Under the pieces are notes generated by a model, which saw only the letters and a list, made by a program, of their open reading frames with translations, had not been told where the DNA came from and did no database searches. From the NCBI GenBank assembly GCA_026713705.1, contig JAPONY010000032.1:1-43206 (forward strand): 43,206 bases of DNA, written 5' to 3'. Each line of letters opens with the position of its first letter. The first letter of the stretch is position 1. This stretch comes from Gammaproteobacteria bacterium. GTDB taxonomy: Bacteria; Pseudomonadota; Gammaproteobacteria; Poriferisulfidales; Poriferisulfidaceae. The translations under genes were made by a program, and so were the position numbers. Positions 24,895 through 40,965 of the stretch are shown piece by piece.

Positions 24895-25619
24895 TCCCGG
24901 TTGCACTGGCGCTGGCGGCGGGATTGGCCGCAGGAACCGCCGCAGCCGAGAGCCTTCAGGAGCGGGCGCTTCGCTCGATGCTCGATGCGGACTGGGCGCA
25001 GGCGGCAAAACTGTGGGCGCAGGTGGACGGGCAGCGCGCCCGGGACTATCTGCAGCAGGCACGGGCGGAACTCCAGTTCCAACAGACCCGGGCCCTGTTG
25101 AGTGAAGCCATAGCGGCACAACGGCAAGAGGACTGGCAGGCGGCGGACACGGCCTATCTCAAGGCGCTGGCCGTCTCCCCGCATCTGAAGGCGGCCCACC
25201 AAGGCCGCGGGCAGGTCGCCCTGTACATCAAAGCGCACCGGCGGCTTGACGAGTTAAAACTGCCGGACGGCTTGTACGACAAGGTGATTCGAGCCCGGGC
25301 GAAAGAGTGGCTCGCCTTCGTCAAAGAAAAGAAACTCAATGACCGGAAGATTACCAAGACCCGCACGGATCTTGCCGCCGCCCTCAAGCTGGCGCAAGCC
25401 CCGGTCTCCCTGGTCCTGACTTCGGACAACCAGTCCGACATCGAAATCTATGGTGTCGGAAAACTCGGCCGACTTGAGCGCCAGACCCTGCAATTGGTGC
25501 CCGGCGACTATATCGTCGTCGCCAGCCGGCCCGGATACCGGGATGCACGCGCGACATTGAAAGTGCGCCCCGGCAAGCCCACCACCCTTGACATCCGGTG
25601 CACGGAGTCGATCCAGTGA
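24840..25619 (+). CDS. Exported TPR/PEGA-like protein
   Basis: The 259-residue product from GTG 24840 has a signal-like segment (LIPVALALAAGLAAGTAAAES). Residues of about 35-135 look like helical TPR-type repeats (DADWAQAAKLWAQV; QRQEDWQAADTAYLKALAVSPHLKAA). The C-terminal third (about 185-250) is a PEGA-like beta domain with LVPGDYIVVASRPGYRDARATLKVRPG. The GTG lies 55 bases inside the preceding gene, and a later CTG at 24891, overlapping that gene's TGA, would give a more normal signal peptide; the start is therefore uncertain. The stop overlaps the next gene by four bases. Confidence 0.75.
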   Translation: MARNPERSLPVGTRRPELIPVALALAAGLAAGTAAAESLQERALRSMLDADWAQAAKLWAQVDGQRARDYLQQARAELQFQQTRALLSEAIAAQRQEDWQAADTAYLKALAVSPHLKAAHQGRGQVALYIKAHRRLDELKLPDGLYDKVIRARAKEWLAFVKEKKLNDRKITKTRTDLAAALKLAQAPVSLVLTSDNQSDIEIYGVGKLGRLERQTLQLVPGDYIVVASRPGYRDARATLKVRPGKPTTLDIRCTESIQ

Positions 25620-27433
25620 TTCTTGACCACGAGCCGGTTCAGGCCCGTCCCTACCAGCCTCCCGAACGGAAGAGACGCCGGGACCGATCGTCGCCGCCCC
25701 GTTTTCGGGGGGCGGGACTGGTGGTTTTTCTCCTGGTGCTGCTGACGGCCGGCGCCTGGTACGCCACGGAGCAGGCACAGTTCATCAACTTCGAGACCGC
25801 TCCCGCAGAGGCCGCGGTGCATATCGAAAGCCCACACGTGATGGTGGGCGGCCAGGCTTTGCTCTGGCGGGGCCGGCATGCCGCGAACGTGGCGGCAGAG
25901 GGTTATCGCTCCCGGCAGGTGGAATTCGAGGCGGGCGGGGACGCACCCCGCACCGTGCAGGTGACCCTGGAACCCCTCCCGGGCAAACTCCGGATCTCTA
26001 CGACACCCGAAACCGAGGGAGAAGTCCGGGTGGACGGCGAACGCGCCGGAAGGATCGGCGAAACACTGGAAGATCTTTCTCCGGGCCGTCATGTCGTGCA
26101 GGTCAGCGTGGAAGGCTTCGAGAGGCACTGGCAGACGGTGGAAATCGAGGGGTACGGGCGACTGACCGAGATCGAGATACCACTCAAGAAAGTCGCAAAG
26201 CCCGCCTTGCTCACGATTTCCAGTACGCCGGAGGCCGCGGACATATTGGTTGATGGCACCTGGCGGGGGCGCACCCCGAAGCAGGTCACGCTGACGCCGG
26301 GCACCCAGGTGGAGGTCGCTCTGCTGCTCCCCGGCCATACCCCGAACCGTCAAACCTTGAAGCTGAAACCCGGCCGACAAAGCCACGCAGCCCCTTTGGC
26401 CCCCCGCACCGGCACCCTTGAACTGTGGCCGACCCCGGCCAACGCGACGGTTCGCATTGACGGGCGGGTGGAACTCCGTCGCCAGTTGCGGCTGCCGCAG
26501 CAGGCGCACACCATCGAAGTCTCCGCGCCGGGCTACATATCGAAGAAGTATGTCGTGGTGCCGCACCCCGATGCGCCGAAGCAACTTTTCGCAGTCCTGC
26601 AATCACAGGCAAAAGTCGAACATTCCCGGCGCCAGAAGCACGAGCAGGGTCTTGGATTGATCTTCGTTGAGTTCCGCCCTCGCGAATCGTTCGAGGTCAC
26701 CACAACACGCCGCCGCATCCCGGTGCGCCTGACGCGGCCGTTCGCGATCATGGACCGGGAGGTTACCAACGCCCTGTACCAACGCTATCAGTTCGGACAT
26801 GACTCCGGAGAGGTCTTCGGCAAGCGCCTGGATCGGCCAAGCCAACCGGTCGTACGGATCAGCTGGACGGACGCGGCGCTCTTCGCGAACTGGATGAGCG
26901 AACAGGCGGGCGTCCCGCCGTTCTACCGGGGGCGCGACGGACGGGTCGAGGGATTCGACGCGAACGCGACCGGGTACCGCCTGCCGAGCGAGGCCGAGTG
27001 GGTCTGGCTGACCCGCTCCGAAAAGCGGTACGCCTGGGGAGATTTCATGCCGCCTCCGAATCGCTTCGGCAATCTGGCGGATGCTTCCGCCGCCGACATC
27101 GTACAGCCCGTTCTAAAAGGGTATAACGATCGGCATGCCGTCAGTGCCGATGCCGGAAGCTTTCCGCCCTCAGCCCGGGGGTTGTATGATTTGCCGGGCA
27201 ACGTAGCGGAATGGATGCACGACGTGTTTCTCAATAAACTGCGGATCTCGGCACGCCCGGAAGCGGAGCGGATCAATCCGCTGGGTGAAGCCAGCGGCCG
27301 ATACTATGTCATCCGGGGCTTCGGCTGGCGCGACAGTGGGCGCAAGGAGTTGAGCTTGAGCAACCGCCGCTACGACCGCGACCCCAAAGACGATGTGGGA
27401 TTCCGGCTGGCCTACTACCTGGATTCACCGTGA
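25616..27433 (+). CDS. Membrane-anchored PEGA-repeat protein with FGE/SUMF1-like domain
   Basis: From GTG 25616 (GTGA overlap with the previous stop) the product is 605 residues. A basic, Pro-rich cytoplasmic tail (about 1-32) precedes one membrane helix (about 33-50). Four PEGA-like beta repeats follow (about 55-320), with phrases such as ISSTPEAADILVDGTWRG and LPQQAHTIEVSAPGY. The C-terminal domain (about 345-600) is of the formylglycine-generating-enzyme/EgtB/PvdO fold: MDREVTNALYQRY, VRISWTDAALFANWM, YRLPSEAEWVWL, GLYDLPGNVAEWM, RGFGWRD and VGFRLA. The cysteines of catalytic FGE near the RGG motif are absent, so a binding role is more likely than catalysis. It is probably periplasmic and inner-membrane anchored. 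Confidence 0.88.
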   Translation: MILDHEPVQARPYQPPERKRRRDRSSPPRFRGAGLVVFLLVLLTAGAWYATEQAQFINFETAPAEAAVHIESPHVMVGGQALLWRGRHAANVAAEGYRSRQVEFEAGGDAPRTVQVTLEPLPGKLRISTTPETEGEVRVDGERAGRIGETLEDLSPGRHVVQVSVEGFERHWQTVEIEGYGRLTEIEIPLKKVAKPALLTISSTPEAADILVDGTWRGRTPKQVTLTPGTQVEVALLLPGHTPNRQTLKLKPGRQSHAAPLAPRTGTLELWPTPANATVRIDGRVELRRQLRLPQQAHTIEVSAPGYISKKYVVVPHPDAPKQLFAVLQSQAKVEHSRRQKHEQGLGLIFVEFRPRESFEVTTTRRRIPVRLTRPFAIMDREVTNALYQRYQFGHDSGEVFGKRLDRPSQPVVRISWTDAALFANWMSEQAGVPPFYRGRDGRVEGFDANATGYRLPSEAEWVWLTRSEKRYAWGDFMPPPNRFGNLADASAADIVQPVLKGYNDRHAVSADAGSFPPSARGLYDLPGNVAEWMHDVFLNKLRISARPEAERINPLGEASGRYYVIRGFGWRDSGRKELSLSNRRYDRDPKDDVGFRLAYYLDSP

Positions 27434-27654
27434 GACGGCTCTGGCTCATGCCCCTTTTCGCGGTCGCGGCCCTGGCGTGGGCCGAAGAGCCCCCTGCGCC
27501 ACAGGCGGGAGAAGACGAGGAGGACCGGGAGGTGATCGAGGTCCTGACCGAAGAGGACCTCAAGCAGGAAATCCCGTCGATCACGCTCAAGCAACTGACG
27601 CCGAAGGAAACCATTTCCCTCGACGAAGCCGTGGACATGCCCCGTGACATCTAG
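27430..27654 (+). CDS. Small exported acidic protein
   Basis: This 74-residue product from GTG 27430 (GTGA overlap) starts with a signal peptide (RRLWLMPLFAVAALAWA-EEP). The remainder is acidic (GEDEEDREVIEVLTEEDLKQE) and ends SLDEAVDMPRDI. It has no known family. Its tight overlap with genes on both sides supports it being real. It may be a small periplasmic partner of the stator complex; that is inference. Confidence 0.65.
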   Translation: MRRLWLMPLFAVAALAWAEEPPAPQAGEDEEDREVIEVLTEEDLKQEIPSITLKQLTPKETISLDEAVDMPRDI

Positions 27655-28525
27655 GTGGACGACTCTGGCCGGAAACTGGCGCGAACACGAGGTGTTCTGG
27701 CAATTGCTGGCGTTGGCACTGTCCTTCGTGGTGGTGCATGCAGCCTATGAACTGGTGGTGCGGCCGGTCGCCTACGAGGAGCTGCAACGCCAGGCCGTCG
27801 CCGAGGAGCAGGCTGAAATCGCATCGCCGACGCTTAGTGCGCGGGCCGCCGTCGTCATCAAGGACTACGAGCAGGAAGCCTGTTTTGTCGCCCTGTTCTG
27901 GGCACTCGCCATCATGTGGATGAAACTGCTGAAACTTCGCTTCGCGCACAGGCTGCTGAACCAGCGTGGCCGACAAGGCGAAGAGAGTTTTCTGGAAACC
28001 CAGGAAACCGATCTGGTCCTGCCGCTGGCGCAAGACCGGGCACGCTTCACCGATGTGCGCGAGCATGTGCGAATGCAAGGCTATGGCAGCACCGCACTGT
28101 ACCGGGCCGCCGATGCCTGTCTGGATCGCTTCTTCACCACGCATTCCGTGTCGGATGCCACCGCGGCCATGAAGGCCAGTTGCGAGATGGAGTCGGACCG
28201 GCAGGACACCGAACTGGCATTGGTCCGCTATCTGACCTGGGCCATCCCGTCACTCGGATTCATCGGGACAGTGCGCGGAATCGGCGCGGCTTTGGGACAG
28301 GCCGAGGAAGCCACACGCGGCAACATCGGCCCGGTGACGGAAAGCCTGGGAGTGGCGTTCAACTCGACTTTCGTGGCCCTGTTGATCAGCCTGTTCATCA
28401 TGCTGCTGCTGCATAAACTCCAGGAAGCCCAGGAATCGCTGGTGCTGGATGCCCAGGAACATTGCCAGCACCACTTGCTGCGTTACCTGCGGGAACGGAC
28501 GCGGACGGATGAGCCTGCTCCTTAG
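27644..28525 (+). CDS. MotA/TolQ/ExbB-type proton channel protein
   Basis: The 293-residue product is the ion-channel subunit type used in flagellar, Tol and Ton energy transduction. Hydrophobic segments lie at about 17-38, 79-97, 192-216 and 234-257. The last two contain the signature: LTWAIPSLGFIGTVRGIGAAL (the PxLGxxGTVxGI motif, Thr 209) and VTESLGVAFNSTFVALLISLF (Thr 242 in the channel helix). An extra N-terminal helix and a periplasmic loop of about 40 residues distinguish it from minimal ExbB. The GTG start at 27644 overlaps the preceding gene by 11 bases. It neighbours two ExbD-like genes and so is the channel of a PMF-driven complex. Confidence 0.93.
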   Translation: MTSRWTTLAGNWREHEVFWQLLALALSFVVVHAAYELVVRPVAYEELQRQAVAEEQAEIASPTLSARAAVVIKDYEQEACFVALFWALAIMWMKLLKLRFAHRLLNQRGRQGEESFLETQETDLVLPLAQDRARFTDVREHVRMQGYGSTALYRAADACLDRFFTTHSVSDATAAMKASCEMESDRQDTELALVRYLTWAIPSLGFIGTVRGIGAALGQAEEATRGNIGPVTESLGVAFNSTFVALLISLFIMLLLHKLQEAQESLVLDAQEHCQHHLLRYLRERTRTDEPAP

Positions 28526-29420
28526 GATCGACGGCTACGCGCTGGCACAGCCCGGCAGTCCCGACTGGCGAGCCGAATGGTGTTCGGCTCGCCGGGTCTC
28601 AAGAGACAACTGGCGGTTTGGAAAAGATTCGAGTGAACGGCTGCAACGCCGACACGACGACGACGAAAACAACGAATACCTGGAAGCACTGGAACCGGGA
28701 GAGGGCCAAGGTACGTCGAATCTCGACCTTGCGTACATGCAGCTGCGAGAATTCCTGCCGGAAGGAGAAGGTCCGATCGACCTTCTGGTGAGCGGGGGAA
28801 TCGACCGGCTGCGACTCGAATATCTGCTGGGCGTACTGGAAGCCTTGGGCTACGCGCCCCGCAACATATTCCCGACCGCGCTGTTGCCCGCCCGGAATCT
28901 CGAACCTGGGCGCTACGGCATCATTGAACTCGGGCGCAGCCGAAGCTGGATCAGCATGGTTGACGTCCAGCCGGGGCAGGCACGGCTGGAATCGGTCCGG
29001 GAATACGGAGATTTCGGGTTCTATCACCTCTTCACCCAGTGGGTCGAGAATGCAGCGGAAGCTTTTGCTGCCCAGCATCGCTTCGACATCCACCGCAATC
29101 TCGCGACAAATCGCGGGCAGTTGTTCGAACAAATGTGCCGGGGCTTTGCCGGGAAGTCCGGACAGATCCGGCTCAACCTGGATTCCCGGCTCGTGATACT
29201 GGACGAAAAGGTCTTCCGGGCCCGCTGGCCGAAGCCTGCCCTCGACACGGAGGGACTGGAACTTCTGCTGCTGCCCCCGCTGCCACAGGTACTGCCACTG
29301 CCGGAACAGGGGCTAGGCTTTCCTCTCTGCGCCAACCCCACACCCCAGGCTGTTTCCGATCTGGACGCCACCGCGCCGGAAGACGGACAGGCCCACCGCT
29401 GCGTGGCCCTTTCCTGCTGA
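28509..29420 (+). CDS. Actin/Hsp70-like ATPase-fold protein of stator operon
   Basis: This 303-residue, apparently cytoplasmic protein starts MSLLLRIDGYAL at ATG 28509, 17 bases inside the previous gene. I read it as an actin/Hsp70-fold protein: residues of about 70-125 (SNLDLAYMQLREFL, then DLLVSGGIDRLRLEYLLGVLEALGY) and about 135-200 (GRYGIIELGRSRSWISMVDV, then YGDFGFYHLFTQWVENAAEAF and RFDIHRN) follow the order DLA...vP/g...LLG...DiG...G...RFD seen in such families. The first phosphate-binding loop looks eroded, so ATP hydrolysis is uncertain. The C-terminal 60 residues are Pro/Leu-rich and unlike the rest. No other family fits better. Confidence 0.7.
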   Translation: MSLLLRIDGYALAQPGSPDWRAEWCSARRVSRDNWRFGKDSSERLQRRHDDDENNEYLEALEPGEGQGTSNLDLAYMQLREFLPEGEGPIDLLVSGGIDRLRLEYLLGVLEALGYAPRNIFPTALLPARNLEPGRYGIIELGRSRSWISMVDVQPGQARLESVREYGDFGFYHLFTQWVENAAEAFAAQHRFDIHRNLATNRGQLFEQMCRGFAGKSGQIRLNLDSRLVILDEKVFRARWPKPALDTEGLELLLLPPLPQVLPLPEQGLGFPLCANPTPQAVSDLDATAPEDGQAHRCVALSC

Positions 29421-30464
29421 ATGTCCAGACGCCGTCGCAACCGTTTCCTGAACCCGTTCGGCCTGGCCTTCCTGGACGTCATGTCCTGCGGGCTGGGGGC
29501 TGCGGTTCTGCTGTTCCTGATCATCGACCACAACCTGACCGAACTGGCGCAGGCATCGGAAAGCGGCGAAGGAGACCTGCAACTGCTGGAGCAATCCATC
29601 CAGGAACAGGAGGAACTGATCGCCGGGCATCAGCGCCAGGTGCGGCAGTTGAGGCGCGAACTGCAAAGCCTGGCGCAGCAGCGCGTGGCCGCCATGACCA
29701 CTCAGGCCGAACTCCGCGCCCGCCGACCGCAGGCGTCCGACACGGTTCGGCTGGAAAAGGAGTTGCGCGAGCAGAAGCAAAAACTTCAAGAGGCAAAGAA
29801 AAGCAAGCAGTTGAGGGCGACGGAGGGAGAAGGCCAGCGTCAGTACGTGGCTGGTTTTCGGGTCGAGGGACGCCGCATCCTGATCCTGCTGGATCGCTCG
29901 GCCAGCATGCAGGACGCACGCATCGCCTCGATCATCCGCAACAAGTTTCTTCCGAAAAAGTACCAGATGGAGAGCTTCAAGTGGCGCTGGGCCCGCTCCA
30001 TCTTCGGGTGGGTTCTCGCGCACCTGCCTCAAGACGCGCAATACCAGGTCTGGGGGTTTAACGTAAAAGCAGCACCGGTGCTGAAGAAGAGCGGGTGGCT
30101 TCTGGCGAAAGACGAGAAGCGGATGGAAGAGGTGATCACGGCGGTACAGGACTGGGTCCCCTCGGGAGGCACCCGCCTGGACACGGTCCTTGCGAAGGTC
30201 GCCCAGATGAAGCCCAGGCCGGATGCGGTGTATCTGATCACGGACGGCCTCCCGACACAGGGAAAATCCTGGTTCAAGAAGAACCGGGTCAGCCCGGCCC
30301 AGCGCATGAAATTCTTCCAGGCGGCGACAAAGGGAATCGTGGGCCCGCCGTTCAACATCGTTCTGCTTCCGCTTGAGGGCGATCCGGCAGCGGCCGGAGC
30401 CTACTGGGGATTCGCCATGCAAACGAACGGGCAATTCTTGGCCCCGGCCGAGGACTGGCCGTGA
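29421..30464 (+). CDS. ExbD/MotB-like TM plus coiled coil plus VWA domain protein (1)
   Basis: The 347-residue product has an Arg-rich cytoplasmic tail (SRRRRNR), then a membrane helix starting FLDVMSCGLGAAVLLFLI (about 17-35) with Asp 19 at its head, the position of the proton-carrying Asp of ExbD, TolR and MotB. A coiled coil rich in Gln/Glu/Arg spans about 45-130. The C-terminal VWA domain starts at about 150 and has a full metal-ion site: DRSAS (Asp 158), Thr 251 in SGGTRLDT and Asp 275 in LITDGLP. The start directly abuts the preceding stop, and the stop overlaps the next gene by four bases. It is probably the periplasmic effector arm of the proton channel. Confidence 0.9.
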   Translation: MSRRRRNRFLNPFGLAFLDVMSCGLGAAVLLFLIIDHNLTELAQASESGEGDLQLLEQSIQEQEELIAGHQRQVRQLRRELQSLAQQRVAAMTTQAELRARRPQASDTVRLEKELREQKQKLQEAKKSKQLRATEGEGQRQYVAGFRVEGRRILILLDRSASMQDARIASIIRNKFLPKKYQMESFKWRWARSIFGWVLAHLPQDAQYQVWGFNVKAAPVLKKSGWLLAKDEKRMEEVITAVQDWVPSGGTRLDTVLAKVAQMKPRPDAVYLITDGLPTQGKSWFKKNRVSPAQRMKFFQAATKGIVGPPFNIVLLPLEGDPAAAGAYWGFAMQTNGQFLAPAEDWP

Positions 30465-31489
30465 GACGCGTCCGCCGGCAGGCTGACAACCACCTGTCGT
30501 TCCTCGACGTGGTCAGTTGCGGGTTCGGAGCCATGGTGCTACTGATCCTGATCACCAAGAACACCGTGGGCGAACCGGTCGAGGACTTGAGGTCCCAGAT
30601 CGAGACGCTGCAGGAGCAACTCGCGCGCGTGATGCAGGTTCAGACCGGCCTGGCTTCCGAACGCCTCAAAGAACAGGCCCGGGTGCGCACCCAGAGGGAA
30701 AAACTTCAGGAAGACCGGAAGGCCGTGGAGGAGGTGAAACAGGCGAACGCCGGCGCCAAGGCGCAAGCCCTGATCGAAGCAAACCTGAAAACCGCGCTGC
30801 AAAGCCTCAACGAAGAAATGCGGCGGCTGAACCTGACTCCGTCCAAGCCCGACGTGATCGGCGGAATCCCGGCCGACAGCGAATACATCATTTTCATTGT
30901 GGACACGTCCGGCAGCATGAAGCGGTTCGCCTGGGAAGCCGCCAAACAGCAACTGGTGGCCCTGCTGGACGCCTACCCGAAAGTGCGCGGGATCCAAGTC
31001 ATGAACGACATGGGTTCGTACATGTTCAGCGGTTATCGGGGACGTTGGATTCCGGACACGCCGGCACGGAGGAAGGTCCTTCTGCAACGTTTCGATTCCT
31101 GGCACTCCTACAGCAACTCAAGCCCGGTCGAGGGGATATTGGAAGCGATCAAGCGGTTTCGCATGAAATCCGACAAGATCAGCCTTTACATTTTCGGCGA
31201 CGAGTACACCGGCGAATCGATCCAAGAGGTCATCGACACGGTGGACGACCTCAACCATCAAGACGGCAAGCGGCAGGTCCGCATTCATGCGGTCGGGTTC
31301 TTCACCCGGACGCAGATCGAGAAGATCGATCCCGAGTACGCCGACACCACCAGCCGCTTCGCGGGATTGATGCGGGAGCTGACGCGGCGGAACGGCGGGA
31401 CTTTTCTGGGGGTTACGGTGGATGAATCCTCGGAGAGAAGCGCCAAGCGTGGACTGTCAAAGCCCGCCATCATCCTGCCCGGCGGGTAA
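30461..31489 (+). CDS. ExbD/MotB-like TM plus coiled coil plus VWA domain protein (2)
   Basis: This 342-residue paralogue of the preceding protein starts at GTG 30461 (GTGA). It has a basic tail (RRVRRQ), a membrane helix beginning FLDVVSCGFGAMVLLILI with Asp 16, a coiled coil (about 38-120, including EDLRSQIETLQEQLARV) and a VWA domain (about 140-330). The metal-ion site has DTSGS (Asp 148), a Ser-Pro loop (SNSSPVEG) in place of the usual Thr, and Asp 247 in IFGDEYTG. With its neighbour it could form a heterodimer in the pentameric channel, as ExbD dimers do. It ends the operon. Confidence 0.9.
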   Translation: MRRVRRQADNHLSFLDVVSCGFGAMVLLILITKNTVGEPVEDLRSQIETLQEQLARVMQVQTGLASERLKEQARVRTQREKLQEDRKAVEEVKQANAGAKAQALIEANLKTALQSLNEEMRRLNLTPSKPDVIGGIPADSEYIIFIVDTSGSMKRFAWEAAKQQLVALLDAYPKVRGIQVMNDMGSYMFSGYRGRWIPDTPARRKVLLQRFDSWHSYSNSSPVEGILEAIKRFRMKSDKISLYIFGDEYTGESIQEVIDTVDDLNHQDGKRQVRIHAVGFFTRTQIEKIDPEYADTTSRFAGLMRELTRRNGGTFLGVTVDESSERSAKRGLSKPAIILPGG

Positions 31490-31518: not shown

Positions 31519-31550
31519 TTAAAAAAGAAACGCCTCCCTGAGGAGGCATT
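31519..31550 (-). terminator. Leftward intrinsic terminator
   Basis: GCCTCC (31532-31537), loop CTGA and GGAGGC (31542-31547) form a perfect six-pair stem. On the minus strand it is followed by GTTTCTTTTTT, a U-rich tract, so it terminates leftward transcription; the plus strand has no U tract after the stem. No leftward gene ends near it now. The nearest leftward gene not belonging to the AT-rich block is the outer-membrane protein gene ending at 37414, which suggests the two were adjacent before the intervening DNA arrived. The stator operon itself has only a weak GGCC-GAAA-GGCC hairpin at 31495-31506. Confidence 0.65.
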
Positions 31551-31616: not shown

Positions 31617-32441
31617 GTGGACGCTGTTGGTTTGCCGGGTTGGCTCCGAGCTCTTCGGAGGGCAGAAATTACCGATCGCGTACACACAGATCCTCGCTCT
31701 GAGGGGAACTCACTGCTCGGCATGCAGGCAGACGAGGCACAGAGGGCCATAGACTTCGGGCAAGCGAACTTCGCTGAAGCGCGCGGCAGCCTGTCATCTG
31801 ATGATTTGGTCCTACTGTACGCACACCTGAACCAGTTGGGCCACATCGAAGAACTTGTAGAAGCGTTTCGTCAGTACTTTAATCATTCCAGCCCTCCCTG
31901 TCCGATTGTCTTGGACATCGGTTGCGGTCCGTTCACTGGCGGACTCGCACTTGCGGCGACACTCACGGATTCGCGTTTCGATTACATTGGAGTTGACGCA
32001 TCCGAAGCAATGCGCCGTCTTGGTGAACGCTTAGCGTCCTCTGCTCTAATTCCAGGCGAAGTGACCCGGCTATGGGCACCCACCTTAGATGCTGTGGCAT
32101 GGCCACATCCACCAGGCTGGCGAGAGGTGATTGTGATCGTCTCATATCTGTTTGCAAGTCCAACCCTAGACAGCGAGGCACTGTTCCACAATCTTATTGC
32201 ATTGCTGGACCGGCTGGGGCGCGGGGGAGTTACTTTGCTATACACGAACGCGACGCGCGAAACAGCAAATCGCGCGTACCCGGCATTTCGGGAAAACCTG
32301 TGTGCAACCGACTTTCGCGTGGTCAAAGACGCCACGGGAGAAATCGTTGTCAAACGACGAAACAGATCTACGCAACGCCCGTTGCGGTATGCCCTGTTTC
32401 GGCGTGACCGGCGCGAAGAGTTGTGTCTCGGGAGAAAATAA
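31617..32441 (+). CDS. SAM-dependent methyltransferase, first gene of AT-rich cassette
   Basis: The 274-residue product is a class I SAM-dependent methyltransferase. Motif I is VLDIGCGPFTGGLAL near residue 98-112, followed by an acidic loop YIGVDASEAM (motif II) and a hydrophobic EVIVIVSYLFASP strand (motif IV region). No DNA-methyltransferase NPPY/DPPY motif is seen, so the target (protein, RNA, small molecule) is open. The start is GTG 31617, with AGAGG about nine bases upstream. It precedes an SF1 helicase gene by one base and is lower in GC than the flanking stator operon. Confidence 0.8.
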   Translation: MDAVGLPGWLRALRRAEITDRVHTDPRSEGNSLLGMQADEAQRAIDFGQANFAEARGSLSSDDLVLLYAHLNQLGHIEELVEAFRQYFNHSSPPCPIVLDIGCGPFTGGLALAATLTDSRFDYIGVDASEAMRRLGERLASSALIPGEVTRLWAPTLDAVAWPHPPGWREVIVIVSYLFASPTLDSEALFHNLIALLDRLGRGGVTLLYTNATRETANRAYPAFRENLCATDFRVVKDATGEIVVKRRNRSTQRPLRYALFRRDRREELCLGRK

Positions 32442-32442
32442 C

Positions 32443-33531
32443 GTGCGACTGCCGACATACGATGAGGTTGCTCGCGTAGAGGAACAGCTCAACGTCTATG
32501 AGGCTCCGTTCAACGAATCTCTTTTCGTCGTGGGGCCGCCTGGCTCTGGAAAAACTGTTCTGGCAATTCATCGCGCTCAGATGATGGCAAGTACGGACAC
32601 GACTGTAGTATTTGTGACCTATAATCGAATGCTCCGACGGCTTACCGCGTTGCTGGCGGAAAGGCAGATTCAAGCGAAGACGATGCACAAATTCATGAGT
32701 GACCATTATCGCGCGCAAACCCATTGTAATCCGCCGGCGAGCGCACCCTATTCCTACGATTGGGACACGATATCTGCCAAGCTGGAACAACTTCGCATCG
32801 GCCCAGATTCGATTCATATGGTCATTGACGAAGGGCAGGATTTGCCACAGCCGTTTTTTCGCTACGTTCGCAAGTTTGTGGCTACCCACATCACAGTGTT
32901 TGCCGATGAGAATCAAGCGTTGGACAAAGAGTACAGCAGGCTTACCGATATTAAAAGCGCCGCTGGTCTAGACAACCCGATTCTGCTCAGCGGCAATCAC
33001 CGCAATACACCCGAAATCGCCCACGTCGCCGGACACTTCCACGTCGGCGACATTCCCATGCCGGAAGTGCACCGCAAGCCATCGGGAGAATTACCAAGAA
33101 TCGTATCGTATGGAACCCTGGGAGAGGCAGCAGAGCGAATAAGTAACTGGTACTTGGCAAGGGGCCGTAGGGTCGGGGTGGTTGTGATGAAAAACAACAC
33201 TGGGCTGGCCGTGCAGGAGGCCCTACAGAGTCGCGTGGAAGGACATCGCGTAGACTTCTACAGTAGCGAGATGAAAAACGAGGACAGCATTGATCTTCTC
33301 GGGGCGGGGATTACAGTGTTGAACGCAAAGTCAGTCAAAGGACAAGAGTTCGATACTGTTTTTGTAATGGAGGTCAACCAATTCTTGCAGCCAGCAGACC
33401 ATAGCCAACGTGTGATGTATATGTTATGTTCCCGTGCGCGGGACAATTTGATCCTTATGCATGAGGGGAACCGCTTGCCAGACACACTCCTTGCACAATT
33501 GCCGGGCCGCGACTTTCTTGAGAGACCATGA
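32443..33531 (+). CDS. Compact SF1 (UvrD-like) helicase/ATPase
   Basis: The 362-residue product has Walker A GPPGSGKT (residues 31-38), a VTYNRMLRRL motif Ia region, DEGQD (129-133, motif II), FADENQAL (motif III), LSGNHRNT (motif IV) and a C-terminal LNAKSVKGQEFDTVFV plus MLCSRARDNLIL (motifs V and VI). These define an SF1A UvrD-like ATPase, about half the length of UvrD because the 1B and 2B insertions are missing. I chose GTG 32443, with GGGAG eight bases upstream, two bases after the methyltransferase stop. Its stop overlaps the next gene by four bases. Substrate is unknown. Confidence 0.87.
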   Translation: MRLPTYDEVARVEEQLNVYEAPFNESLFVVGPPGSGKTVLAIHRAQMMASTDTTVVFVTYNRMLRRLTALLAERQIQAKTMHKFMSDHYRAQTHCNPPASAPYSYDWDTISAKLEQLRIGPDSIHMVIDEGQDLPQPFFRYVRKFVATHITVFADENQALDKEYSRLTDIKSAAGLDNPILLSGNHRNTPEIAHVAGHFHVGDIPMPEVHRKPSGELPRIVSYGTLGEAAERISNWYLARGRRVGVVVMKNNTGLAVQEALQSRVEGHRVDFYSSEMKNEDSIDLLGAGITVLNAKSVKGQEFDTVFVMEVNQFLQPADHSQRVMYMLCSRARDNLILMHEGNRLPDTLLAQLPGRDFLERP

Positions 33532-35711
33532 CTACAGCAGAGCTTCCACTGCCAATTCCGGGCGGAGAGAACCACGCGAAGGTCGATAGGTCCGACCGGA
33601 AAAACCCTCTACAGCAACGCGGTGCGAGTGCCAATGAGGGGCGTGCAACGGATTGGCTAGGCCTTGAGACAGACCACAGAAGGCTGTTTGAGGCGGGGCA
33701 GGATGAGTGGCTGCATCCCTGCCCATCGGGATTTGTTTTAGGGCGTGGGTGTTTCGTAGCCGAACCCCATCGGATCGAGAATCGCAATATCGTTGCGGTT
33801 CGACTAGCCTTTGATGAGAAGAAACTGCCACTGTTCCAGAATACGAAGCAAGATATTGTGCCAGTTATAGAAAGCTTATCTAAGCAGGATGATGCACCGG
33901 TTGGAACAAGATGGGTTGCCCCTATTCCTCTGTACGCAGTCATGAGACTGGAAGTCATCTCATCGGAAGAAAAAGCACGTCTTCATGCGATGGCTGGCCA
34001 AATATCAAACGTTTCCCTGCCTGACATAGAAATCACGGTAGGTGCTACCAAGGTATTTCCGGTTCCGACACAGGAATCGACAATCGCTCACCCATCTCAT
34101 GTGGAACTGCCTGAAACTCTGAACGCGGTCCACGGTGCGATGGCAATGGCGGTGTGGGCCGTACCACGTGTTGATCCGTGGATCGATACACTGCAAAGTG
34201 CCTTAAACCTAGATGCGGAAGAAACTACGCGAAAAATTATGGATCTCGACGTACAGTGGCTGCACGTTCCTTGGCTCCATGACCACACCTCCGCTTCCTG
34301 CAATCCCGAGGCGACGTTATGGCGGGCAGCGCTCGCTACGATGCGCAGCCCAAGCACGACAGGCATGTCGCCTGCTCAGGTCGCCGAGATGATCGCCCGA
34401 CACGCATGCAACGAAGGGGCAGGGGAAATGGCAAAAGATTGGCTTGATCACACGCGACGTATAGTCGCGGCAGAAGGGTCATTCTCCCCGGACGCGACTG
34501 GTGCCGGCCTTGCGATACAACTTGTTCTGCTGCGGCCGGAACCGGTAGACTTCAAGGCGTGGAGCAGGGATCTCCCATGGTTGCCCCCTGCGACTTGGTG
34601 GGCTGCATCGGTTCTTTGCGGGTGGCGACACGGATATCGTGCCCTAGACAAGCGGTTTCGGGGAGATGCCGCCTTCCGTGAATTCCTTACCACCCACGCG
34701 CTGAAGGCATCGTGGCCAAGTGACATTAGTAGCTTGCTGCCGACCATGCAACAGGAGAAACTCGAATGGCAGCGAGAGGATGATTGCTTTTCGATGAATT
34801 GGGGCGGGCATCCAATCATCCAGAAACAGTGGCACCCGCGAGGCAAGTGGTACCAAGCCGATTTTGCAGACAAGACAGTCGCGAAATCTGCCCGTGAGAT
34901 TGCTAGCAAGTTGGAGTGGCCGTGCTTAAAACGGCGGATATCTTTGACGGAGACTCGCGTGCCAGTGCGCGGAAAGGGCAACCTCTCGATTGACGTAAAC
35001 CAAGAGTTGATGGTGACGGGGAGAGTTGCGTTATATCTACCGGAGGGGGTTCAAGTGGAGGAGGAGGTCGACCCAGACGAATTTCGTCGAGAATTGGTGC
35101 GTCGAGCTGGCGAAGTGTCCGACCCACCCAAGCGATCCCTGCCACAACCAGTTGACATGGACATCCCTGGCTTGATTTATTGCCCCCATTTTATATCGCG
35201 AGACGAAGAACTTGAGCTAATTGAACGCATCGACAGGGGCGCATGGAGCAAGAGCCTTGCACGTCGTGTGCAACAGTATGGCTGGCGCTACGACTACAGG
35301 CAGCGGAAACTTGACGCAGCAATGCGTCTTGGCGAACTTCCAGACTGGGGTGCTTCGCTGGCTCGGCGACTGGTGGACGAAGGATTGATAGATGCGCCGC
35401 CTGACCAGATGATCGTGAATGAATACCTTGGCGATCAGGGCATCACAAAGCACATTGACCACCCCAGTTTCGCCGAACAGGTTGCAACTATTAGTCTACT
35501 GGAGACATGGGGGATGGTTTTCCGGCTCCGGGACAGAAAGATTGAGAAACCCCTTGAGCATGGCAGTGTCGCAGTATTGACGGGTGAAGCGAGATACGAG
35601 TGGACACATGAGATCCCGAAGCGGAAGTCCGAACCCGGGGGTGAGGGACGTAAGCGTGTCAAACGGGGCCGGCGAGTCTCGCTCACTTTCCGCAAGACCA
35701 AGGTGGCCTGA
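33528..35711 (+). CDS. Large protein with C-terminal AlkB-type 2OG-Fe(II) dioxygenase
   Basis: The 727-residue product begins at ATG 33528 (ATGA overlap). Residues 1 to about 535 match nothing I recognise; they are Trp-rich in places (WLPPATWWAASVLCGWRHGY) and could hold two domains, one near 55-190 and one near 190-530. From about 545 the sequence is an AlkB-family dioxygenase: NEYLGDQGITKHIDH with iron ligands His 642 and Asp 644, WTHEI with His 694, and RRVSLTFRK, where an Arg binds 2-oxoglutarate. AlkB enzymes remove alkyl groups from, or hydroxylate, nucleic acids or proteins. The fusion with a long N-terminal region and the methyltransferase/helicase context are unusual. Confidence 0.82.
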   Translation: MTTAELPLPIPGGENHAKVDRSDRKNPLQQRGASANEGRATDWLGLETDHRRLFEAGQDEWLHPCPSGFVLGRGCFVAEPHRIENRNIVAVRLAFDEKKLPLFQNTKQDIVPVIESLSKQDDAPVGTRWVAPIPLYAVMRLEVISSEEKARLHAMAGQISNVSLPDIEITVGATKVFPVPTQESTIAHPSHVELPETLNAVHGAMAMAVWAVPRVDPWIDTLQSALNLDAEETTRKIMDLDVQWLHVPWLHDHTSASCNPEATLWRAALATMRSPSTTGMSPAQVAEMIARHACNEGAGEMAKDWLDHTRRIVAAEGSFSPDATGAGLAIQLVLLRPEPVDFKAWSRDLPWLPPATWWAASVLCGWRHGYRALDKRFRGDAAFREFLTTHALKASWPSDISSLLPTMQQEKLEWQREDDCFSMNWGGHPIIQKQWHPRGKWYQADFADKTVAKSAREIASKLEWPCLKRRISLTETRVPVRGKGNLSIDVNQELMVTGRVALYLPEGVQVEEEVDPDEFRRELVRRAGEVSDPPKRSLPQPVDMDIPGLIYCPHFISRDEELELIERIDRGAWSKSLARRVQQYGWRYDYRQRKLDAAMRLGELPDWGASLARRLVDEGLIDAPPDQMIVNEYLGDQGITKHIDHPSFAEQVATISLLETWGMVFRLRDRKIEKPLEHGSVAVLTGEARYEWTHEIPKRKSEPGGEGRKRVKRGRRVSLTFRKTKVA

Positions 35712-35717: not shown

Positions 35718-36458
35718 CTATGTGACCACGGGGCGGAAATCTTCGCCGCTCATCGGTTCATGCCGGGACCAACACCCGCTCATTTCGATCAGAACACGCT
35801 GACTCAGCGGCGTGGGTTGCGGGTTGACCTTTACCACATGCGCGGAATACGTCGGAGACCCTACCATCGCCGCAACAATCTCCCCCATAAGATACCGTGG
35901 AGCCCAACCAATCGTATGGCGATTCTTCGTCTGAATTTGGACAGCTGGCCGAGCCGCCAAGCCGGTCTGTTCCAAGGCGACATGCAACCCTTCTCCTTTT
36001 TTTAGTTGATCAATCCTCTGAAGAGTTGATGCGCTTGCGTCTTGCAAACCCTGCAACAGAAAGCGACATGTAAAACTTCCGTTTTCATCTTTCTCGATTT
36101 TCGGAAAGACTTCATAAAAATCCGTGACGCGACGACCACCATTTACCGACAAAATTTCGACGGAGTCTGCGCTTTCCGGCAGATCGAGGTGCTCAAGATA
36201 TTGGGCGCGGTCTGCCCTGCCTCTAGCAATGACCCGGTTCCTGAAAATAGCAAAAAGTTCGAGAGATTGATAATCGCCTTTCATGTCCGGAAAATCATAC
36301 AGTGGAGGAAACCCAACTTCTCTGCTCGCCCGTTCTGCGCCGGCCGTGTACCGGAACCGGAACCGAGGCAGATCGGTCTCTACATCCAGCCTTCCAATGG
36401 GAAACCAGTGCCGACGTTCTTTGTCACGCCAACCCAGGTATAAAGTTTGCTCATTCAT
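35718..36458 (-). CDS. HIRAN-like domain protein
   Basis: The 246-residue product starts MNEQTLYLGWRDKERRHWFPIGRL. Its C-terminal half has the pattern of a HIRAN domain, a small DNA-end-binding module: a QRIDQLKKGEGLHVALEQ segment, AVQIQTKNRHTIGWAPRYL, and a final VNPQPTPLSQRVLIEMSG stretch. The N-terminal half (about 1-130) has RFRFRYTAGAERASREVGFPPLYDFPDM, reminiscent of the short HipA N-terminal region. The start overlaps the end of the HipA-like gene by eight bases, so the two are coupled. It converges with the dioxygenase gene with six bases between stops. Confidence 0.65.
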   Translation of the reverse strand: MNEQTLYLGWRDKERRHWFPIGRLDVETDLPRFRFRYTAGAERASREVGFPPLYDFPDMKGDYQSLELFAIFRNRVIARGRADRAQYLEHLDLPESADSVEILSVNGGRRVTDFYEVFPKIEKDENGSFTCRFLLQGLQDASASTLQRIDQLKKGEGLHVALEQTGLAARPAVQIQTKNRHTIGWAPRYLMGEIVAAMVGSPTYSAHVVKVNPQPTPLSQRVLIEMSGCWSRHEPMSGEDFRPVVT

Positions 36459-37344
36459 GTGCCAGCGCCCTCAATTGCTGGAAATTATAAAGGAGCAGAG
36501 CAGCGGCGAACTTGCATGCCGACGGGGTTGCCACACTGATGGGAATGCGGCAAACCATATCTTCGAGAGCGGCCTCGTCTAGATACTGCAACCTGGAAAG
36601 CGCCAGATTGAAGATGTTCGGATAATCCCGGACTCCACGTCTCACCACGTCCAAAGGGCTCAAGCCATGCGGCTCGTCTCCCGACCAATAAACCGCGCCA
36701 CGTCCTTTCTCAGAATAGGTTCCGACACGCCCTTCTGCTAGAAATCTATCGCGCCGCTCGTCCAAAAGCTCACGTCCCAAAGAAGAAGCGTGATCGAATG
36801 AAGGTGCAACAAAACCTTTCCAGCCATCATCGGTTTCCCAGCGCAAAATGCCCCAGTTTTCGTGGTGCCGATCAGTGTTCCCAATCAACGCATCCAAGAC
36901 CAAATATCCTGAAATACATGTTTTCGCATCTTCCGCCACGCCTGCCGAAAAAAAGATAGCGTCCATTGCAGCAAAAATGTTTTTCACAGTATGACTCGAT
37001 TGGTCGAATCTCTTCTTCAGGTCGTAATTCTGGATGAGTTGTTCCAGCAACTGGTTGCCATGATACAGACCTCTTCCTTCACGCACGAAGGATTCTGTTA
37101 CTGAGCCATGCTGTCCTTGAAATTCCGCCAGCTCAACTTTTGCATGTTCAACCCGAAGAACCACTGCAACCTGTTCCGCAACTTTTTCCGCCCAATGCTG
37201 CCCGGTATTCGGCTGAGAGTATTTGAAGAGCCACCGCTGCTCATCTTCTGGATTTTTGTACCAGAACTTTGTCTTGCTTCCCATTCCCTCCGGATCCTGA
37301 ACCCATCCTGGTTCCACGGTGATAATGGGATGAAAATCGGGCAT
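36451..37344 (-). CDS. HipA-like kinase-fold protein
   Basis: The product (297 residues from ATG 37344; an ATG 11 codons upstream at 37377 is also possible) belongs to the HipA/PI-kinase-like fold. Visible elements are WLFKYSQP with a candidate ATP-binding Lys, the catalytic loop ALIGNTDRHHENWGIL with the Asp and Asn, and the metal-binding PSFDHASSLG. HipA-type proteins phosphorylate targets such as a tRNA synthetase in toxin-antitoxin modules. Here the N-terminal HipA domain and the HipB antitoxin are missing; instead a HIRAN-like gene follows with an eight-base overlap. Confidence 0.78.
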   Translation of the reverse strand: MPDFHPIITVEPGWVQDPEGMGSKTKFWYKNPEDEQRWLFKYSQPNTGQHWAEKVAEQVAVVLRVEHAKVELAEFQGQHGSVTESFVREGRGLYHGNQLLEQLIQNYDLKKRFDQSSHTVKNIFAAMDAIFFSAGVAEDAKTCISGYLVLDALIGNTDRHHENWGILRWETDDGWKGFVAPSFDHASSLGRELLDERRDRFLAEGRVGTYSEKGRGAVYWSGDEPHGLSPLDVVRRGVRDYPNIFNLALSRLQYLDEAALEDMVCRIPISVATPSACKFAAALLLYNFQQLRALAHE

Positions 37345-37413
37345 CACGATCACCAAACAATTGTGCTTATTTCGCACGCATGCTCGTCACTCTAGTAGAT
37401 TCGGATACCCTCG

Positions 37414-38220: not shown

Positions 38221-38247
38221 TGTGCCTCACTCCATGCTCAGTAAATT

Positions 38248-38979
38248 TCAGTCGATCCTGGTGCCACGATGGATCGCCACGATCCCGGCACTCAGGTTGA
38301 AGTATTGGCAGGACGCAAATCCTGCGGCGCGCATCATCTCGCGCAGGGTCCGCTGATCCGGGTGCACGGCGATGGACTCGGCCAGATAGCGATAACTGTC
38401 GCGGTCCCCGGCCACGAGATCGCCAAGTTTCGGCACGGCCTGGTGCGTGTAGGCATGGTAGAGCGGCTCCAGCCAGGCGGATGGCTGGGAAAACTCGAGG
38501 ACGAGCGCCAGCCCGCCGGGACGCAGGACCCGGTGCATCTCGCGCAGGCATGCCGAGGGATCCGTGAAGTTGCGCAATCCGAACCCGACCAGGACCCGGT
38601 CAAACGACTCCGACTCGAACGGGAGGGTCGCCGCATCCCCCTGTACGGCCGGAATGTCCGTCAGGCCTTCGTCCAGCAGTCGATCCCGACCCTGCGTCAG
38701 CATGCCGTTGCTGATGTCGCACAGAACCACCTGCCCCTCCGGGCCGATCCTTGAGCGGACCAGCTGGGTCAGGTCACCGGTTCCTCCGGCGAGATCCAGA
38801 ACGTACTGGCCCTCCCGAAGTTGCGCCAGCAGCGTGAACGCCCGCTTCCACACGCGATGCAACCCGAACGACATCAGGTCATTCATCATGTCGTAGCGGA
38901 ACGCCACCGATTCGAACACCTCGTTCACCAGACGGGTTTTCTCGTCCGGCTCGACCTGCTTGTAGCCGAAACGCGCCAT
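38248..38979 (-). CDS. ubiE: Ubiquinone/menaquinone methyltransferase UbiE
   Basis: UbiE C-methylates the quinone ring in ubiquinone (and menaquinone) synthesis. The 243-residue product starts FGYKQVEPDEKTRLVNEVFESVAFRYDMMNDLMSFGLHRVWK, the family's signature start, then SAM motif I VLDLAGGTGDLT, a DRVLVGFGLRNF motif and VLRPGGLALVLEFSQP. Length is normal. It is four bases after a DUF971 gene and is followed by an outer-membrane protein gene, whereas ubiJ, its usual neighbour, lies about 16 kb further on. Confidence 0.95.
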   Translation of the reverse strand: MARFGYKQVEPDEKTRLVNEVFESVAFRYDMMNDLMSFGLHRVWKRAFTLLAQLREGQYVLDLAGGTGDLTQLVRSRIGPEGQVVLCDISNGMLTQGRDRLLDEGLTDIPAVQGDAATLPFESESFDRVLVGFGLRNFTDPSACLREMHRVLRPGGLALVLEFSQPSAWLEPLYHAYTHQAVPKLGDLVAGDRDSYRYLAESIAVHPDQRTLREMMRAAGFASCQYFNLSAGIVAIHRGTRID

Positions 38980-38983
38980 GAGC

Positions 38984-39349
38984 CTAGTTCTCCACGACCT
39001 TTCGCTCGATCCCGGCTTCCTTCAGGCGCCCCAGATAGCGCCCCCAACGGGCCTCAAAATCGCGGCCCAGTTCGTACAGGTAATCCCAGGAATAGATGCC
39101 CGTGTCATGGCCGTCGCTGAACACCAACTTCACCGCATAGTTGCCGACCGGCTCGATGGCGTCGATGGCCACATCCTCCTTGCCGACCTGCAGGGTTTCC
39201 TGCCCCGGGCCATGGCCCATCACCTCCGCCGAGGGTGAATGGACCCTCAGGTATTCGCAACTCAACTGGAAGCGATCCTCGCCGAACGCGATCTCCAGGA
39301 CTCGGGAGCGCTGGTGCAGGTGCAGCTCCGTAGGGGTGTTCTCAGCCAT
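38984..39349 (-). CDS. DUF971 (GBBH-like N-terminal) domain protein
   Basis: This 121-residue protein matches the small DUF971/gamma-butyrobetaine-hydroxylase-like N-terminal domain found beside ubiE in gammaproteobacteria. Typical elements are LHLHQRSRVLEIAFGEDRFQLSCEYLRV near the start, GKEDVAIDAIEPVGNYAVKLVFSDGHDTGIYSWDYLYELG in the middle, and a basic end. Its cysteine and histidines may bind metal. Molecular function is not established. It is four bases from ubiE. Confidence 0.9.
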   Translation of the reverse strand: MAENTPTELHLHQRSRVLEIAFGEDRFQLSCEYLRVHSPSAEVMGHGPGQETLQVGKEDVAIDAIEPVGNYAVKLVFSDGHDTGIYSWDYLYELGRDFEARWGRYLGRLKEAGIERKVVEN

Positions 39350-39376
39350 CCGCCTATTGTGCCGGAAGTCGGTTTC

Positions 39377-40285
39377 TCAGTTCCGACGCCGCGCGCGCGG
39401 ATGTGCCGAATCGTAGGTCTGGGCCAGATGTTGATAATCGAGGTGAGTGTAAATCTGCGTGGTGCTGATGCGGCGGTGCCCCAGCAGTTCCTGTACGGCG
39501 CGCAGGTCGCCGGAAGATTCCAGCAGATGGCTGGCGAAGGAATGGCGGAACAGATGAGGGTGTAGCGCCTGATCGCTTCCCGAAGCGCATCCGAACTGGC
39601 GCAGGCGCAACTGCACGTTGCGGGCAGACAGACGTTTTCCGCGCTGGCCGACAAATAGTGCGGTTTCCTCGGGCTTCGCCATCTTTGCCCGCACATCAAG
39701 CCAGCCGCGCAGTGCCTTCAATGCCATGCGCCCGACCGGGAGCTTGCGTTGCACCCGCCCCTTGCCAAGAACCAGGACCTCTCCCGCCGCCATGTCCAAA
39801 TCACTGCAATCCAGCCCGACCAGTTCGGAAAGGCGCATGCCGCTGGAATACAGGAGTTCGAACATTGCCAGATCACGGTATCCCAGCGGGCCATCCGGCC
39901 TCGAGTCGAGCAGGCGCATCACCGCATCGACATCCAGCACCTTGGGAAGCGTCCGGGGCTGCCGGGGAGCGCGAACCCCGTTCGCCGGATTATCGGCCAG
40001 GCGATGCGTCGCGACCAGATGGTCGTAAAACCCGCGCAGGGCCGACAAGACGCGCTGGATGGAACGCGGGGACCGGCCCTGTCGGAACAGATGTGCGGCG
40101 TAGCGCTGAACCTCGCTCTCGCGCACTTGATCCGGCTCGATTGATTGTTCATCAAGCCACCGGGAAAACTGCCGGATGTCGCTCGCGTAGCCTGCAACGG
40201 TATGCGTCGAGTAGTTGCGCTCCCAGCGCAATTTAGCCTGGAATTCCTCCAGCCACAGTTCCGTGCCTTGCGCAGGCTCGCTCAC
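39377..40285 (-). CDS. xerC: Tyrosine recombinase XerC
   Basis: XerC acts with XerD at dif sites to resolve chromosome dimers. The 302-residue product has an N-terminal SAM-like core-binding domain (about 7-95) and a catalytic domain with Arg in GMRLSELVGLD, Lys in the beta-hairpin GKGRVQRKLPV, HLFRHSFASHLL, GHRRISTTQIYTHLD with the nucleophilic Tyr, and the usual final YDSAHPRA. Length is standard. It overlaps the DUF484 gene upstream (ATGA). Its position in a dapF-DUF484-xerC operon matches E. coli and other gammaproteobacteria, so I prefer XerC over a phage integrase. Confidence 0.95.
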   Translation of the reverse strand: MSEPAQGTELWLEEFQAKLRWERNYSTHTVAGYASDIRQFSRWLDEQSIEPDQVRESEVQRYAAHLFRQGRSPRSIQRVLSALRGFYDHLVATHRLADNPANGVRAPRQPRTLPKVLDVDAVMRLLDSRPDGPLGYRDLAMFELLYSSGMRLSELVGLDCSDLDMAAGEVLVLGKGRVQRKLPVGRMALKALRGWLDVRAKMAKPEETALFVGQRGKRLSARNVQLRLRQFGCASGSDQALHPHLFRHSFASHLLESSGDLRAVQELLGHRRISTTQIYTHLDYQHLAQTYDSAHPRARRRN

Positions 40286-40965
40286 GGGTCACCCCGGGGT
40301 TCACAGAATCGGTCGAGCAGGGCTGCCGTAAGATCGGCCACGTGCAGGAGCAGGGTGGTGTCGCCTTCGCGATCGATACCGGGCGGCAACTCCCGGCAGA
40401 GGATGCCGTAGCGCCGCCGCCGTTTCAGGGGCGCGATAACCAAAGTGTCCGAATCCTCCTTCGACTTCGGCCACAGCAATGCGACGGTCTCGCGATCCAC
40501 CAGAATCTGCGGTCCTTTTCGGAATACGGTCATGATCGCGCGCACCAAGGGCGGGTGTTCAGGAATCTTGTACTTGGCGGCAACACGTGAAATCTCCGGG
40601 CGCAACCGGATTGCCCAGCCCGCGTTCGGGAAATGGCGGAGCAGGCGCCTTTCCTGTGCCTGGATCGCCGCTCCCAGACTTTTCGGACGATCCTGCAAGC
40701 TCTCTGCCGCCAAAATCAGGGCATGGTCGATCAGCTCCTGATTGCGGTTCGCCATCTGGAACAGGGCTTCCAGTTTCGCATTGTGCTCGCGCAGCCGGCG
40801 TGCCTGGTACGCCTGAAACGAGATGGTCCCATCCGCATCCTGCGGCAACTGCATCCGCTCCAGCAACTCCGGGTTGGAAGCCAGAAAATTTGGGTGTTTT
40901 TCAAGCCACGCCTGAACACGCGCCGCAGAAAGCTCGCGTGACGTGGATTTGGATTTCGGACTCAT
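40282..40965 (-). CDS. DUF484 family protein
   Basis: This 227-residue protein belongs to DUF484, a GAF-like family normally found between dapF and xerC. It starts with a short helical region (RVQAWLEKHPNFLASNPELLERMQLPQ), includes SFQAYQARRLREHNAKLEALFQMANRNQ, and a GAF-like beta region with TLVIAPLKRRRRYGILCRELP. Function is unknown. Four-base overlaps at both ends (ATGA) link it tightly to dapF and xerC. Confidence 0.92.
   Translation of the reverse strand: MSPKSKSTSRELSAARVQAWLEKHPNFLASNPELLERMQLPQDADGTISFQAYQARRLREHNAKLEALFQMANRNQELIDHALILAAESLQDRPKSLGAAIQAQERRLLRHFPNAGWAIRLRPEISRVAAKYKIPEHPPLVRAIMTVFRKGPQILVDRETVALLWPKSKEDSDTLVIAPLKRRRRYGILCRELPPGIDREGDTTLLLHVADLTAALLDRFCEPRGDP

Follow-up and report, generated by a model that had tools for sequence, protein, structure and literature searches.

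A conserved, mobile methyltransferase–helicase–AlkB cassette related to ALKBH8 enzymes and to DISARM-type operons

What unites a methyltransferase, a short helicase and an AlkB-type dioxygenase in one tightly packed operon? This question is raised by positions 31617-35711 of contig JAPONY010000032.1 (assembly GCA_026713705.1) from a gammaproteobacterium, which was analysed over a stretch of 43,206 nucleotides (hereafter the window). A sequence-only reading had seen here three coupled genes for an S-adenosylmethionine (SAM)-dependent methyltransferase, a half-size superfamily 1 (SF1) helicase and a 727-residue protein ending in an AlkB dioxygenase, referred to below as the cassette and its fusion protein. 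By sequence comparison, we established the gene set, its conservation and mobility, the assignment of the dioxygenase to the ALKBH8 group, the recurrent pairing of methyltransferase and AlkB genes and a kinship with DISARM-type operons. Altogether, the data tentatively point to a composite mobile module of defence type, in which methyltransferase and ALKBH8 chemistry would act in sequence, probably on RNA; we rate this reading slightly below an even chance.

Conservation and mobility of the three-gene set

The three genes are coupled by a 1-nt gap between the methyltransferase and helicase genes and by an ATGA overlap between the helicase gene and that of the fusion protein. The coordinates proposed from the sequence alone proved right, with the helicase start corrected from the upstream TTG of the raw open reading frame to GTG 32443, where relatives start with MRLPT. 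The label of AT-rich DNA holds in relative terms only, as the guanine-cytosine (GC) content of the cassette is 54.8% versus 62–63% in its flanks. The assignment as a SAM methyltransferase was borne out by the domain match and motif given in Table 1; NCBIfam and PADLOC matches of the cassette proteins stayed at the superfamily level.

In a sample of 369 genomes of the class, one further full copy was found (genome G603, locus L012). A two-sequence profile of the N-terminal part of the fusion protein retrieved ten loci from approximately 85,000 species genomes, one of which (L016) is the same contig as that of G603. Based on tblastn and profile searches, there are nine complete copies with the same gene order (the window, L012, L014, L015, L017, L018, L019, L022 and L058); two more loci (L020 and L021) carry an intact fusion protein with incomplete or decayed upstream genes, and L023 is a fragment of the N-terminal part. 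Identity to the window proteins is 44–54% for the methyltransferase and 46–53% for the helicase; in tblastn segments of the fusion protein, it is 32–37% for the N-terminal part and 52–57% for the AlkB part. Pairwise ratios of nonsynonymous to synonymous substitution rates (dN/dS) lie at 0.14–0.40 for each cassette part. Because the order is kept in nine complete loci and dN/dS is in this range, chance and pseudogene readings are excluded. On this comparative evidence, the three genes are a real conserved unit, which other genomes keep as a set and not just as separate genes.

The copies are found at unrelated chromosomal sites. For example, the L017 copy lies between tgt and yajC, and that of L012 has pyruvate dehydrogenase and aminopeptidase genes on one side and a glycosyltransferase-like gene on the other (gene names assigned by eye from translations). 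In addition, a genome of the same genus (G566) displays an empty site: it aligns to window positions 26946-31430, 35736-36465 and 38245-41802 and skips the cassette, in place of which it has a segment of about 240 bp carrying a tRNA-Glu(ttc) gene (L050:4490-4565). This tRNA gene is missing from the window, and one diverged tRNA-Glu(ttc) gene is located on another contig of the window's genome. The L058 copy resides on a 92-kb IMG/VR contig with conjugation-type genes, beside a TraD/VirD4-like coupling protein and with a tyrosine-integrase-like gene downstream (read from its translation). The fusion protein (P0002) had no match in the phage records, and its N-terminal part had none in the viral contigs. 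Judged by its scattered sites, the empty site in G566 and the surroundings of the L058 copy, the cassette is horizontally mobile.

The dioxygenase and its methyltransferase partner

All seven iron- and 2-oxoglutarate-associated residues of the dioxygenase domain (Table 1) are invariant in ten homologues, which confirms the intact active site described earlier. In a single-sequence search, the best solved relative was human ALKBH8 (3thp, E 3e-18; next match 2e-9). With a 16-sequence AlkB profile, ALKBH8 (4e-44) ranked ahead of NMAD-1 (ALKBH4-like, 8e-26), ALKBH6 (2e-17) and ALKBH5 (1e-9), and the DNA-repair enzymes E. coli AlkB (2e-6) and ABH2 (2e-4) came far below. A fold search with the full-length fusion model, which is a test of the AlkB part only, gave a predicted AlkB-like fold with ALKBH6, ALKBH5 and ALKBH8 tied at Z scores of 20–21. 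By these matches, the domain belongs to the 'bacterial ALKBH8' group described by Zdzalik et al. (2014), who left its physiological substrate open and favoured RNA (PMC4051686). A PADLOC match to CARF_2OG on the same domain (E 0.004) was judged to be a chance or superfamily match.

The assignment bears on the expected chemistry. Eukaryotic ALKBH8 hydroxylates an already modified base, mcm5U (5-methoxycarbonylmethyluridine) in tRNA, and is fused to a methyltransferase, the human protein having both activities in one chain (PMC4051686). Hydroxylation would be the likely chemistry of the cassette dioxygenase as well, and the earlier idea of a methyl-adding enzyme opposed by a methyl-removing one is not supported by the assignment to this group. 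For the two bacterial members tested, DNA repair was low to negligible, with the more distant R. etli protein as an exception; that of R. denitrificans was negligible (PMC4051686). The R. denitrificans gene on pTB4 (hit H3), which we take to encode the protein tested there, shares 44.5% identity over the AlkB domain of the cassette.

With regard to the methyltransferase, no DNA-methylase motif of the NPPY/DPPY type was found (the motif IV region reads VSYLFAS), and no DNA-methylase family gave a match. Its best profile matches in the PDB were trans-aconitate methyltransferase and METTL17, with no detectable likeness to Trm9; the METTL17/Rsm22 resemblance is a lead only.

The METHYLTRANSFERASE-dioxygenase pair recurs outside the cassette: in 8 of 11 ALKBH8-type loci, a SAM methyltransferase gene lies upstream in the same operon. 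These loci, a small and partly related sample, are those reached without the N-terminal part and include the full cassette of G603; the count does not cover four bacterial AlkBs found in the phylum sample (L004-L007), which belong to the less closely related R. etli type. Homologues of the window methyltransferase stand beside ALKBH8-type genes in G603, G698, G436 and three Picosynechococcus plasmids, and those of G698 and G436 (profile E 7e-26 and 5e-9) lie directly 5' of a lone ALKBH8-type gene. In G063 and G262, the neighbouring methyltransferase is BMT5-like instead (rRNA uridine-N3 methyltransferase family). The Picosynechococcus sets (two strains; L026, L030 and L036) comprise a P-loop kinase (AAA_33/KTI12)-WYL protein, whose KTI12 resemblance is a lead only, the methyltransferase and an ALKBH8-type AlkB, and adjoin type III-B CRISPR or reverse-transcriptase genes. 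Since genes for AlkBs of this type mostly stand behind a methyltransferase gene, also where the remaining parts are absent, the pair can be regarded as a unit. We read its recurrence with unrelated methyltransferase families, and its occurrence as one protein in animals, as a sign that the pair would act in sequence, RNA being the likelier substrate.

Viral contigs show a related picture. In L059:4998-7335 and L060:4968-6412 (one contig of 448 kb), an ALKBH8-type AlkB has an RlmN/Cfr-like radical SAM protein just downstream. The published reading of a jumbo-phage AlkB assumed methylated adenines in DNA (PMC7824862); the RlmN/Cfr-like neighbour suggests RNA instead.

Kinship of the helicase and the N-terminal part with DISARM-type operons

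The motor motifs of the helicase are complete (GPPGSGKT, VIDEGQD, NHRNTPE, KGQEFD and RARDN), and its description as half-size is fair because 362 residues leave no room for 1B/2B insertions. Matches to NERD, Gabija and HelD families were judged to be superfamily-level. Its best outside plasmid relatives are from Streptomyces, Deinococcus and two Photobacterium plasmids (E 1e-41 to 1e-48), and in all four of these high-coverage matches the helicase directly follows DrmA- and DrmB-type genes. The only other match among 398 phylum genomes (G216, 4.7e-44) has the same arrangement; its DrmA and DrmB were recognised by eye because they closely resemble the Photobacterium proteins. At 4/5 of the DrmA-DrmB loci, the helicase is followed by a gene, here called X, for a protein of 467–576 residues. 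The resulting DISARM-type operons of the order DrmA-DrmB-short SF1 helicase-X (L027, L028, L034 and L035) encode X proteins for which PADLOC and Pfam gave no match, and some such operons have DNA methylases nearby.

Does the cassette hold a counterpart of X? For residues 1-545 of the fusion protein, sequence searches of Pfam, NCBIfam, PADLOC and PDB returned nothing. Comparison of an N-terminal profile (10 sequences) with that of X (4 sequences) gave an hhalign score of 35.2, collinear over residues 72-532, and 200 column-shuffled X alignments had a mean of 15.5 and a maximum of 22.5 (0/200 reaching 35.2; reversed control 16.8). Based on the shuffles and on the matching gene position, the N-terminal part appears to be a diverged homologue of X, at the level of a distant relation. 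This suggests that the short helicase and the X protein form a reusable module; no description of the pair was found in the literature.

For the predicted structure of the N-terminal part (residues 41-536; predicted local distance difference test, pLDDT, of 66.6), Foldseek returned nothing below 0.001. The first 136 residues of the model attract the ADP-ribosyltransferase (ART) fold group, led by DarT, Tpt1 and CC0527; the best Foldseek E value for this region is 0.037 with several ART families in the top rows, for a model of pLDDT only 67 and without a sequence match. The helical part attracts ARH3 at a Z score where fortuitous helical matches are possible, and the likeness may reflect a common arrangement. 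Because an invariant glycine (G45) occupies the position in strand 1 where the catalytic His/Arg is expected, we treat residues 41-176 as a putative binding domain of ART-like fold and not as a proven enzyme.

Possible function of the cassette and its relation to known systems

The surroundings of several copies are suggestive of a defence role. Directly downstream of the window cassette lies the candidate defence pair PDC-M03A/B (PADLOC, E 1e-84 and 1e-65), and a type II, D12-class adenine DNA methylase is encoded at 41828-42619. PDC-M38A/B and a PD-T4-4/AriA-like ATPase are neighbours of L021, an Eco57I-like methylase is found next to L018 and an HNH endonuclease next to L015.

We propose that the module was assembled from two older gene pairs. 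The methyltransferase and the ALKBH8-type dioxygenase would act on one substrate, where a methyl-type group would be written on a base and then oxidised; most likely, this would be RNA (tRNA, rRNA or a phage transcript). The short SF1 helicase and X, here fused to the dioxygenase, are common to the DISARM-type operon family and would provide access by opening or translocating along the nucleic acid and thereby deliver the dioxygenase. As an outcome, host RNA might be protected from an attacking enzyme, or foreign nucleic acid might be disabled. We infer the RNA substrate, the sequential chemistry, the helicase as delivery motor and the anti-phage role; the DISARM-type kinship of the helicase and the N-terminal part agrees with the broad initial suggestion of a module for nucleic-acid modification, repair or phage resistance. 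It is rather unlikely that the cassette represents a new immune-system class, in which an RNA base would first be methylated and an ALKBH8-type enzyme, delivered by a DISARM-related helicase-X unit, would then oxidise it to a hypermodified state. If true, this would give bacterial ALKBH8 enzymes their first assigned role and describe a defence mechanism resting on RNA hypermodification.

Several observations weigh against the proposed module. Within the cassette, there is no nuclease or obvious killing effector gene. Six chromosomal copies (L012, L014, L017, L019, L020 and L022) lie among housekeeping genes only, so enrichment in defence islands is not demonstrated. A methyltransferase neighbour is missing at three of the 11 ALKBH8-type loci (pTB4, Streptomyces sp. 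3211 and the second G262 locus), and hhalign's own probability for the N-terminal part versus X is low (14%, and 7% in a second comparison). Moreover, R. etli ALKBH8 repairs etheno-DNA lesions, which makes a DNA substrate possible, and in an Agrobacterium mutant tRNA-Gly(UCC), the one tRNA tested, was unchanged (PMC4051686).

An unlikely alternative is a DNA-based self/non-self discrimination resembling DISARM: the methyltransferase would mark host DNA, and the helicase and the N-terminal/AlkB protein would handle unmarked or alien DNA, with AlkB stripping or altering marks. The kinship with DrmA-DrmB-helicase-X operons, some of them near DNA methylases, is in agreement with this explanation. 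However, the methyltransferase lacks the hallmarks of DNA methylases, DrmA and DrmB are missing from the cassette, the genome, which is 95.6% complete, yielded no DUF1998/MZB domain, and the AlkB domain, as a member of the ALKBH8 group, is remote from both DNA-repair AlkB and ABH2.

Less likely again, the genes could be accessory to mobile elements and modify or repair RNA, in the service not of host defence but of translation fitness, of counter-defence or of resistance to toxins that target RNA. RNA-type methyltransferases are indeed paired with AlkB in bacteria and phage contigs, the cyanobacterial pairs follow the KTI12-matching protein, and one cassette copy is on a mobile contig; yet DISARM-type systems are indicated by the helicase and by the N-terminal part, and several copies lie near defence genes.

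Repair of alkylation damage, in which AlkB would demethylate lesions exposed by the helicase, just as human ASCC3 exposes lesions for ALKBH3, and the methyltransferase would be incidental, appears improbable. The intact AlkB active site and the repair of etheno adducts by the R. etli protein (PMC4051686) would fit such a role, but no complete copy is without the methyltransferase, which is paired with AlkB even where the helicase is missing, and the related R. denitrificans enzyme has negligible repair activity (PMC4051686). Least likely of all is a reversible mark, with the dioxygenase removing the methyl group just added: both activities are encoded side by side and AlkB enzymes commonly demethylate, but the best-studied ALKBH8-group enzyme hydroxylates a modified side chain (PMC4051686) and a futile cycle within one operon is hard to select for, so that a writer plus an oxidiser fits better than a writer plus an eraser.

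Returning to the composite module, its most valuable consequence concerns the substrate of bacterial ALKBH8 enzymes. These have been described as being without a methyltransferase domain (PMC4051686); the methyltransferase 'missing' from them is a neighbouring gene in many genomes, and because of this recurrent neighbour the substrate question becomes directly testable. Likewise, the cassette and the DrmA-DrmB-helicase-X operons together allow the function of the helicase-X module to be sought.

Table 1 Features of the cassette and its immediate surroundings in the window.
Positions	Strand	Feature	Evidence
31529-31550	-	Hairpin and T run, terminator-like, between upstream von Willebrand factor A (VWA) operon and cassette	Hairpin count not above chance
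31617-32441	+	Class I SAM-dependent methyltransferase, 274 aa	Methyltransf_25 E 1e-5, motif DIGCGPFTGG
32443-33531	+	Short SF1 (UvrD/HelD-like) helicase, 362 aa, GTG start	AAA_19 E 4e-9
33528-35711	+	727-aa fusion protein: N-terminal region and ALKBH8-type dioxygenase	2OG-FeII_Oxy_2 E 5e-18, residues 586-722
33648-34055	+	Fusion protein aa 41-176, predicted ART-like fold, probably not catalytically canonical	DarT Z 8.8, Tpt1 Z 7.9, CC0527 Z 6.8; pLDDT 66.6
34248-34748	+	Fusion protein aa 241-407, helical; holds the stretch most clearly common to X	Profile comparison; ARH3-like helices Z 9.0
35163-35711	+	Fusion protein aa 546-727, ALKBH8-group AlkB dioxygenase domain	Fe(II) H642/D644/H694; 2-oxoglutarate N631/Y633/R716/R722
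35718-37377		Candidate defence pair PDC-M03B (246 aa) and PDC-M03A (HipA_C-like kinase, 308 aa)	PADLOC

Downstream of the cassette, G566 keeps only an M03B-like stretch, next to ubiE; the PDC-M03A gene and an outer-membrane barrel gene are thus also variable. Positions 41828-43142 at the window end (42.5% GC) hold the D12-class methylase and a partner-like gene, with a weak PDC-M34B match, and are probably a restriction-modification island. Upstream, positions 25598-31489 encode two VWA proteins, which resemble each other in their N-terminal membrane-plus-coiled-coil layout, together with an FGE-sulfatase/PEGA protein and one of MotA/TolQ/ExbB type; this cluster is close to neither Zorya nor Tol.

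How does the cassette compare with known systems? In agreement with the sequence-only reading, which knew of no system of this composition, PADLOC, NCBIfam, Pfam and the open literature (including AlkB and defence) yielded no described match, and comparison with ARMADA, BRIGADE and TALON showed that none of them fits. ARMADA type II (ArmD GajB-like helicase, PglX-like methylase) resembles the cassette in combining a methylase with a UvrD-family helicase in defence, but the YprA and BrxHII helicases and the DNA methylase of ARMADA (PMC12458937) are all missing here. PADLOC weakly matched the methyltransferase with mad2 and the helicase with mad8; these scores, typical of shared superfamily folds, were judged to be chance or superfamily matches, and other MADS parts were not seen beside the cassette. 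The DrmA-DrmB-helicase-X operons (Deinococcus P4, Photobacterium, G216) resemble the cassette in their short helicase, which is homologous, and in the protein encoded next, a distant homologue at the same gene position. In contrast, the cassette has no DrmA, DrmB or DNA methylase, and its X counterpart is fused to AlkB; a DrmC phospholipase D protein and a DNA methylase had no match among the cassette and its direct neighbours. By gene content, the cassette is not DISARM, despite the kinship of two parts with a DISARM-type module.

The bacterial ALKBH8 group (e.g. R. denitrificans, pTB4) belongs to the same AlkB subgroup and has been studied as stand-alone AlkB domains, whereas the cassette domain has a 545-aa fusion partner and a genetic link with a methyltransferase and a helicase. 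Compared with eukaryotic ALKBH8, which joins an RNA recognition motif (RRM), AlkB and methyltransferase and acts on the tRNA wobble uridine, the cassette is without an RRM or zinc finger, encodes its methyltransferase, not recognisably of the Trm9 type, as a separate gene, and adds the helicase and the N-terminal part. The likeness lies in the AlkB domain, for which eukaryotic ALKBH8 is the closest relative in sequence and among the closest in fold, and in the occurrence of methyltransferase and AlkB as a pair.

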